The notes under the pieces are model-generated. The model had not been told where the DNA came from. It was given only the letters and a program-made list of their open reading frames with translations, and ran no database searches. Source: Streptomyces caatingaensis (lineage in GTDB: Bacteria; Actinomycetota; Actinomycetes; Streptomycetales; Streptomycetaceae). From it: DNA of 64,000 bases. The position numbers were made by a program, and so were the translations under genes. The stretch spans positions 186,001-250,000 of the forward strand of contig NZ_LFXA01000009.1 of NCBI RefSeq assembly GCF_001187435.1, read 5' to 3'. This document shows positions 40,028 to 49,952 of this stretch, piece by piece; positions within the stretch are counted from its first letter, which is position 1; the number at the start of each line of letters is the position of its first letter.

Positions 40028-40089
40028 GGTGGGTGTTCTCCTCGGGGCTGCCGGGCCCCGGTGCCGCCGCCCGCCCGGAGGGTGCACGC

Positions 40090-40127
40090 ACGAGCGCCCC
40101 GGGCCTTGGCCGGCCCGGGGCGCTCGT
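40090..40127 (-). terminator. Attenuator terminator before chorismate mutase
   Basis: ACGAGCGCCCCGGGCC and GGCCCGGGGCGCTCGT form a perfect 16-bp stem with a 6-nt loop, between the leader peptide stop (40141) and the structural gene (40027). It is the strongest hairpin in the leader. On the RNA, CGGGCCGG from its first arm and loop can instead pair with CCGGCCCG inside the leader ORF, giving an alternative fold. Confidence 0.8.
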
Positions 40128-40140
40128 GGAAGTCGCTGTT

Positions 40141-40218
40141 CTATCGCTGAGCAGCACGACCATGGCAGCCGGACGGGCCGGTGCCATAGGTAAAGACGAA
40201 GGTCGAGTGCTCGCGCAT
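40141..40218 (-). CDS. Phe/Tyr leader peptide of chorismate mutase
   Basis: 25 codons, [18 protein letters not shown] then HGRAAQR, ending TAG. Residues 7-11 are Phe-Val-Phe-Thr-Tyr, two Phe and one Tyr in five codons. The ORF uses TTT, TAT, CAT, GGT, CGT, GCT and CGA, codons very rare in this genome, which suggests that RNA pairing constrains the sequence. From the Thr10 codon, 40159-40191 folds into a bulged 13-bp hairpin (ACC(T)ATGGCACCGG with its complement). Stalling at Phe/Tyr codons would block that hairpin and free CCGGCCCG to pair with the terminator arm. ATG 40218 lies 7 bases after the -10, probably leaderless. Confidence 0.7.
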
Positions 40219-40225
40219 GGCGGAC

Positions 40226-40255
40226 AGTATGGCCCCGGAGCGGGCCCGGGGCCAA
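40226..40255 (-). promoter_or_regulatory. Promoter of the chorismate mutase leader transcript
   Basis: On the minus strand TTGGCC (40250-40255), 18-bp spacer, CATACT (40226-40231). The predicted start coincides with the leader ATG at 40218. Confidence 0.55.
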
Positions 40256-48833: not shown

Positions 48834-49952
48834 ATGAGCTTGATGGGGACGCCCTTCTTCGTGACCACGATCGTCCTGGTCGTGGTCGCCCTCGCCCTGC
48901 CGCTGCTGCTGTGGAGCAGGATCGGGGGCCCCCGGATCGTCCGGTACGTCGCGCGGCTGCTGATGCTGCTCTTCGCCCAGGCCACGGCGATCACCATGGT
49001 CTTCGTGGTCGTCAACAACGCGAACGGCCTCTACGACAACTGGGACGACCTGCTCGGTACCGGCGACCACGTCGCGGCCGCCGCCGACCTCGGCAAGGAC
49101 GGCACGGGCGGCAAGCAGATGAAGGACCTGCCCCGGGTCGTCCAGAAGTTCACGGCCGTCTCCGACGGGCGCATGGGCGAGGGCGTCCGCAAGACCCAGC
49201 TCAAGGGCCGCGTCTCCGGCGTCAACGGCGAGGTCTACGTCTGGACGCCGCCGCAGTACGACGACCCCCGGTACAAGAAGAAGAAGTTCCCCGTCGTCGA
49301 GGTCCTCCCCGGCTTCCCCGGCTCCGCCAAGGCCTGGTTCGGCACGCTGAAGGTCAACGAGCAGCTCAGGCCGATGATGGAGAAGGGCGAGATCCAGCCC
49401 TTCATCATCGTCGCGCCGCGCACCACCCTCCTCGGCTCCAAGGTCGACACCGGCTGCGCCAACACCCCCGGCACGATCAACGCCGACACCTGGCTGAGCT
49501 TCGACGTCCGCAAGATGGTCGTCGACAACTTCCGCGTCAGCGAGAAGCCCGAGGCGTGGGGCGTCGCCGGCTACTCGGCGGGCGCGCACTGCGCCGCCAA
49601 GCTGACCATCGCCCACCCCGACCGCTTCCACGCCGGCGTGAGCCTCTCCGGCTACAACGACCCCATCGGCGTCCGCGCCTCGCTCACCGCCAAGACCCCG
49701 GCGCTGCGCAACGAGAACAACCCGCTGAAGATGCTCAAGCGGGCCAAGACCCCGCCGCCGGTGGCGCTGTTCTTCTCCGGCAGCGAGCGCGACGGCTACC
49801 GGTCGGGCCTGGACGTCAAGAAGGCCGCCAAGCTGCCCACCACGGTCGAGGTCAAGGAACTCCCGGCGGACGCCGGCGGCCACAACACGGCCGTCTGGAA
49901 GGAACAGGTCCCCGAGATCTTCCAGTGGCTCACCAAGCAGCTCACCGCCTAG
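48834..49952 (+). CDS. Membrane-anchored esterase (alpha/beta fold, Esterase D/antigen 85-like)
   Basis: 372 residues. Two N-terminal spans (about 5-27 and 38-60), then an extracytoplasmic domain: FPVVEVLPGFPGSAKAWFG, nucleophile elbow AWGVAGYSAGAHCAAKL, acid in the region SGSERDGYRSG and His in ADAGGHNTAVWKEQVP. Esterase D-type hydrolases and acyltransferases act on acyl or trehalose esters; here a role on surface lipids or cell-wall esters is possible. ATG 48834. Confidence 0.82.
   Translation: MSLMGTPFFVTTIVLVVVALALPLLLWSRIGGPRIVRYVARLLMLLFAQATAITMVFVVVNNANGLYDNWDDLLGTGDHVAAAADLGKDGTGGKQMKDLPRVVQKFTAVSDGRMGEGVRKTQLKGRVSGVNGEVYVWTPPQYDDPRYKKKKFPVVEVLPGFPGSAKAWFGTLKVNEQLRPMMEKGEIQPFIIVAPRTTLLGSKVDTGCANTPGTINADTWLSFDVRKMVVDNFRVSEKPEAWGVAGYSAGAHCAAKLTIAHPDRFHAGVSLSGYNDPIGVRASLTAKTPALRNENNPLKMLKRAKTPPPVALFFSGSERDGYRSGLDVKKAAKLPTTVEVKELPADAGGHNTAVWKEQVPEIFQWLTKQLTA

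Follow-up and report, generated by a model that had tools for sequence, protein, structure and literature searches.

The gene for chorismate mutase (CM) in Streptomyces caatingaensis is preceded by the layout of a leader-peptide attenuator, and comparison with related genomes makes it very probable that this leader works by ribosome-mediated transcription attenuation in response to Phe and Tyr. Since CM catalyzes the first step common to Phe and Tyr, and not to Trp, sensing of these two amino acids would suit the gene. The stretch of DNA that we have analyzed, referred to as the window in what follows, comprises 64,000 nt (NZ_LFXA01000009.1, positions 186,001-250,000, assembly GCF_001187435.1) and its relevant features, in window coordinates, are

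40226 to 40255, minus strand: putative promoter read from the sequence, with TTGGCC (40255-40250), an 18-nt spacer and CATACT (40231-40226)
40141 to 40218, minus strand: leader open reading frame (ORF), 25 codons and a TAG stop
40200-40198, 40194-40192 and 40188-40186, minus strand: control codons Phe7 (TTC), Phe9 (TTT) and Tyr11 (TAT), respectively
40161 to 40188, minus strand: hairpin 1:2 (pause hairpin), bulged, TATGGCA.CCGG/CCGG.c.TGCCATG, at the Tyr codon
40160 to 40172, minus strand: region 2, CCGGcTGCCaTGG, which forms the 3' arm of hairpin 1:2 or, alternatively, the 5' strand of the putative antiterminator
40115 to 40129, minus strand: region 3, CCACGAGCGccCCGG, which overlaps the 5' arm of the terminator and provides the 3' strand of the putative antiterminator, with pairing through CCA, GCG and CCGG
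40089 to 40128, minus strand: putative terminator hairpin 3:4, a perfect 17-bp stem (40128-40112 with 40105-40089) and the loop GGCCAA
39740 to 40027, minus strand: CM gene, the predicted regulated gene, 95 amino acids, with GAGGAG upstream at 40043-40038

The original prediction had placed a Phe/Tyr leader-peptide attenuator in front of CM and this remains the best-supported reading, with compensatory changes in both hairpins 1:2 and 3:4. The 25-codon ORF with its Phe, Phe and Tyr codons is found as proposed, as is the bulged hairpin, located at the Tyr codon, and the terminator stem is indeed perfect, its length being 17 bp instead of the 16 bp given earlier. CATACT lies seven bases 5' of the leader ATG (40218), so that the transcript is probably leaderless, in keeping with the promoter suggested at the outset; a generic promoter scan did not call the promoter at this position. 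When the RNA from the leader to the CM start is folded a z score of -3.6 is obtained, with none of 200 shuffles equally stable, and only 3 of the 345 small ORFs of the window, the CM leader ORF among these, have at least three F/Y within six residues. Another ORF, with FFFLY at 49357 (minus strand), is antisense to ORF 48834-49952 and was taken as accidental. The codons described earlier as rare are rare as well in five window ORFs (guaA among them, read from the longest start), where TTT accounts for 1 of 47 Phe codons, TAT for 0 of 32 Tyr, CAT for 1 of 41 His, GGT for 7 of 212 Gly and GCT for 1 of 276 Ala. The CM protein itself matches PF01817 (E = 4.5e-7) and, above cut-off, NCBIfam NF005894 and TIGR01808; the best 80 named of the 265 relatives found are from Streptomyces, one of them filed as [Kitasatospora] papulosa. 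The gene guaA (PF00958, PF00117) is in opposite orientation to CM.

Region 2 has two potential partners, region 1 in the pause hairpin and region 3 in the antiterminator, and region 3 could alternatively join region 4 in the terminator, so that the pairings, as read from the sequence, are mutually exclusive. The probably leaderless ORF places Phe9 and Tyr11 just before hairpin 1:2, both in S. caatingaensis and by comparison with its relatives. From this arrangement we infer translation of the leader, stalling, termination and a response to the amino acids in the following manner. With ample charged tRNA-Phe and tRNA-Tyr the ribosome would reach the stop codon and cover region 2, in which case 3:4 would form and RNA polymerase would stop near 40089. 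With either tRNA uncharged the ribosome would stall at Phe9 or Tyr11, covering region 1, and region 2, CCGGcUGCCaUGG, would then pair with region 3, CCAGGCGccCCGG, leaving no terminator and allowing CM to be transcribed. In the event of no translation at all, an outer helix that extends 1:2 on its 5' side would hold the switch off. Supply of the CM enzyme in streptomycetes and their relatives appears, on the strength of these sequences, to be raised when Phe or Tyr is short.

In order to establish how far the leader is conserved we have compared 245 loci of the genus, taken from two collections with species duplicates kept; CM is present in 147 of 150 genus genomes. The leader core TTTACCTATGGCA, with at most 3 substitutions, precedes CM in 242 of these loci (225 of them exact), the 242 leaders corresponding to 232 distinct sequences. 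The three remaining loci are L017 and L167, which are cut by contig ends, and L166, whose degenerate leader lacks the Phe codon that precedes Tyr. All 242 leaders, located as these were by a search for the core, contain Phe9 and Tyr11, nearly always encoded by the rare TTT and TAT; codon 7 is TTC in 211 cases and TAC in 11. A -10-like TA has its first base 10-14 nt ahead of the start codon in 241 of the 242 leaders, a figure that is partly by construction because in-frame starts with such a motif were preferred and only 14 nt were searched, and TTG[GAC] is found 15-20 nt before the -10 in 164. An uninterrupted stem of at least 11 bp (G-U allowed) follows the core in 230 of the 232 distinct leaders versus 24 of 1160 dinucleotide shuffles.

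In 18 of the 242 genus leaders the frame is shifted by indels downstream of the Tyr codon, such that the same hairpin RNA is read in another frame, bearing out the selection on RNA pairing to which the rare codons had been taken to point. The same indels speak to whether the leader might encode a functional small protein with the RNA structure being secondary. The peptide does end in GCHGRAA or similar in 211 of the 242 genus leaders, but the 18 preserve the nucleotides and abolish a peptide end of this type, and leaders of other families have little in common beyond F/Y-Y-G, so that we consider a functional small protein to be highly improbable.

In fragments that begin with the Tyr codon, hairpin 1:2 folds in each of 286 leaders from nine families, starting within 0-3 nt. 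Trimming in this way favors a hairpin start at that very place and the leaders were therefore refolded with 15 nt of upstream sequence added. In the genus, pairing then involves a mean of 10.8 nt of the 12 that begin with the Tyr codon versus 2.7 of the preceding 15, with corresponding values of 9.6 and 5.0 in the other families, and short upstream pairing often lengthens the hairpin. With the added sequence the first paired base is located at -3 to -1 in 163 of the 242 genus leaders and further upstream in 79; for the 44 other leaders it is at +3 in 5, within four bases upstream in 2 and further upstream in 37. Covariation in related genomes had been suggested as a check of the attenuator, and compensatory changes in both 1:2 and 3:4 do exceed those of shuffled and slid controls, where it is to be kept in mind that all of the covariation shuffles quoted here and below (1:2, 3:4, 2:3, nested and outer helices) ignore the relatedness of the sequences. 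In alignment A1, comprising 51 of the 286 leaders (under 92% identical over 36 nt), 6 of 7 scorable TAC leaders have G opposite, a position occupied by A or G in TAT leaders, and a C-G pair is replaced by G-C in 14 of 50. The outer seven pairs of 1:2 contain 35 double-change cells in these 51 leaders versus 9.5 +/- 2.5 when shuffled, with 0 of 500 shuffles as high and at most 5 such cells in slid versions.

A second alignment, A2, was used for the remaining helices and includes 121 of 240 genus leaders (under 93% identical), 2 of the 242 having been dropped beforehand (stem under 10 bp or short). Terminator 3:4 is paired in 95.1% of the cells of these 121 leaders; 9 of its pairs are doubly changed, in 35 cells versus 9.0 +/- 2.4 for shuffled data (0 of 500 as high), and slid versions give at most 11 cells. 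The predicted antiterminator differs from what was first proposed. The 8-bp pairing of CCGGCCCG with CGGGCCGG put forward earlier is present in S. caatingaensis (40181-40174 with 40117-40110), but it is not conserved, and it was rejected: only 76.7% of its cells are paired and 465 of 500 shuffles do as well. In addition, most of the 5' half of this pairing would be hidden beneath a ribosome that stalls at Tyr. Folding of the RNA that such a ribosome would leave free, using an assumed footprint, gives in its stead the pairing 2:3 of CCGGcUGCCaUGG with CCAGGCGccCCGG, the latter being region 3 in most of the genus, which joins the 3' arm of hairpin 1:2 to the 5' arm of the terminator. This pairing is found in 96.5% of 1331 cells from the 121 leaders versus 27.6-54.5% for slid versions. 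Its own covariation is weak, as expected for a pairing that is nearly invariant, with 2 double-change cells compared to 6 in one slid version, and 14 of 500 and 35 of 500 shuffles reaching its values for two double-change measures.

The controls are mixed for two associated helices, for both of which the slid versions do not match on the covariation score. The nested helix GCUUG/CAAGC, inside 2:3, has 12 double-change cells versus 2.9 +/- 1.6 in shuffles (0 of 500 as high) and 10 in one slid version, and is paired in 91.8% of cells; one slid version with few cells reaches 89.3% of 122 and the others are not close. For the outer helix that extends 1:2, in which the 5' end of the leader meets RNA downstream of that hairpin (A2 columns 6-44 with 97-113), 77.9% of cells are paired versus 27-48% when slid, and there are 28 double-change cells versus 11.9 +/- 3.0 when shuffled (0 of 500 as high) and 32 in one slid version. 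Among 223 distinct leaders with stems of at least 11 bp, all from the genus, folds of the RNA with a ribosome at Tyr pair region 2 with the 5' arm of the terminator in 219, although the fold as a whole is hardly better than that of shuffles (mean z of -0.38). When regions 2 and 3 were exchanged between families, own pairs were not distinguished from foreign ones in the genus, f4 or f18, and stood out only in f35 and f46, with one leader each. The exchange does not discriminate in GC-rich RNA, and terminators were imperfectly detected in f4 and f18; we count its outcome against the attenuator.

The 3:4 stem of S. caatingaensis is not followed by a U-run and a terminator scan based on U-tracts does not call it. 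Past the stem the genus is no more than mildly rich in T, with on average 3.87 T in 12 nt and a longest run of 1-3 T in 188 of the 242 leaders, and this as well as the missing U-run weighs against the attenuator. A further motif, CCGG(A/G)...CCGGGG, is located at 40088-40029 in the window. Of 242 genus loci, 131 have it no more than 60 nt past the terminator stem, versus 0 of 242 shuffles, and its pairing with the arms of the terminator or close to the ribosome-binding site is conceivable. Both the motif and the missing U-run would fit a switch that acts on translation or RNA stability, in which a stalled ribosome alters folding around the CM ribosome-binding site and not termination. We regard such a switch as unlikely, however, since the strongest stem ends 45 nt before GAGGAG and has the geometry of a terminator, and since in L169 and L170, two loci of another family, the final stem ends in a T run.

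Outside the main set 68 loci yielded 62 with a CM match and upstream DNA, 60 from eight other families and 2 (L311 and L312) that are second copies in genus genomes; one of the 62, L275, owes its placement to a match with E = 4.6, and with the CM query CM was found in 91 of 296 genomes of the class. A divergent leader with a like layout, an F/Y motif directly followed by a stable hairpin, precedes CM in 44 of the 62 (families f4, f14, f18, f21, f31, f35, f37 and f46), and no such leader was found at the other 18. As the F/Y motif was defined after inspection of these loci, we used the opposite strand and mononucleotide shuffles as controls, in which motif and hairpin were found together in 0 of 62 and 1 of 310 cases, respectively.

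With model R1 a single full-length element is detected in the genome of S. caatingaensis (128 bits, E = 3.7e-34); the second-best match, of 26.6 bits, covers the terminator part only. Full-length matches of at least 42 bits are found in 46 of 61 family genomes, and four others, of genus g118, have a weak match (31-38 bits) just before CM. In the remaining 11 no match to CM is better than E = 0.001, and matches to the element reach at most 33.3 bits, that one to the terminator only. These 11 genomes, G442, G449, G457, G461, G469, G473, G476, G479, G482, G485 and G487, have no clear CM ortholog. CM is present at each of the 29 loci of the best R1 matches (L345-L373); it was looked for directly in 16 of the 61 genomes, and 15 of the 46 genomes with the element fall outside the CM checks. 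The genus genomes G103 and G426, without CM, have no R1 match above 26 bits, and in G114 and G139 the element adjoins the end of a contig, with CM either truncated or absent there. Co-occurrence of the element with CM holds in the family sample wherever checked.

A symmetrical stem such as this one, for which R1 matches the plus strand too, might also serve as a terminator in both directions, insulating guaA against CM and its convergent neighbor, with the small ORF in front of it being accidental. The recurrence over nine families of F/Y codons, of a hairpin at the Tyr codon and of its compensatory changes would, however, be left unexplained by an insulator, which we find scarcely credible in comparison with an attenuator that responds to Phe and Tyr.

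The closest precedent is the aroR attenuator of Corynebacterium glutamicum aroF, reportedly described by Neshat et al. in 2014. As recounted in the review PMC11802643, a Phe-Tyr-Phe leader peptide controls aroF, whose transcription increases under Phe limitation, with Tyr availability having no effect. Like the leader studied here it is an actinobacterial leader peptide with Phe and Tyr codons in the aromatic amino acid pathway, yet it precedes aroF, in a DAHP synthase operon, and not CM. As aroR does not respond to Tyr, sensing of Tyr by the CM leader is not assured. The pheA leader (pheL) of Escherichia coli, in the account of the same paper, attenuates in response to charged tRNA-Phe ahead of a CM fused to prephenate dehydratase; it is similar in preceding a CM activity, and the present leader differs from it in being leaderless, in having both Phe and Tyr codons and in controlling, as predicted, a stand-alone CM of the high-GC type. 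Attenuators of Streptomyces are on record for trp, leu, ilv, thrS, alaS and met (Seliverstov 2005, PMC1262725; S. lividans, PMC8079986), and these resemble the CM leader in that most are short and leaderless ORFs with hairpins downstream, in some cases lacking a stretch of uridines. A Phe/Tyr or CM case is absent from the abstract of the former paper and from Table 4 of the latter, where the eight leader peptides of S. lividans include none for Phe, Tyr or CM. Seliverstov et al. state for Phe and Tyr operons of Actinobacteria that conserved RNA structures were not observed upstream (PMC1262725).

In the literature searched, open-licence PMC papers, we found no description of a CM attenuator in actinobacteria and no paper with any of five leader peptide strings. 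Rfam 15 gave seven sub-threshold matches, the best of 23.2 bits versus a gathering score of 70, and NCBIfam no match for three leader peptides. The CM-linked attenuator thus seems to work like known switches of its type and not to have been described before for CM. With it, attenuation by Phe and Tyr would extend to the branch point at chorismate, in nearly every Streptomyces locus examined as well as in eight additional families of the class. The element is a candidate for inclusion in Rfam and may offer a means of influencing how antibiotic producers are supplied with aromatic precursors.

Conservation in the genus (A2) is 90% or higher over much of the stretch that begins with the Phe codon and extends, linker included, to the arms of the terminator, which may exceed the needs of an attenuator acting in cis. 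The terminated leader RNA (∼130 nt) or its peptide might conceivably also act in trans. Action in trans is described in PMC7298713 for the Trp leader peptide of Sinorhizobium (peTrpL); for the CM leader we consider it unlikely.

A leader scan that finds its CM control detected none like it before eight other aromatic-pathway matches in the own genome, the negative genes including DAHP synthases on C2, C4 and C17, a prephenate dehydratase, two genes of prephenate dehydrogenase type and the other CM_2; for the four DAHP synthase genes there is no resembling leader within 700 nt of the match. The C9 DAHP synthase is preceded by one ORF that contains F and has two possible starts; no -10 was seen in the 14 bases before this ORF and it was not taken as a leader. 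The second gene with a CM_2 domain (L394, G000:C4:177372-177608) lacks an F/Y leader, and its Pfam score of 81.6 bits is the stronger of the two. Matches to class II DAHP synthase are found at four loci of the own genome, on C2, C4, C9 and C17 (L396-L402), some of which are perhaps involved in secondary metabolism.
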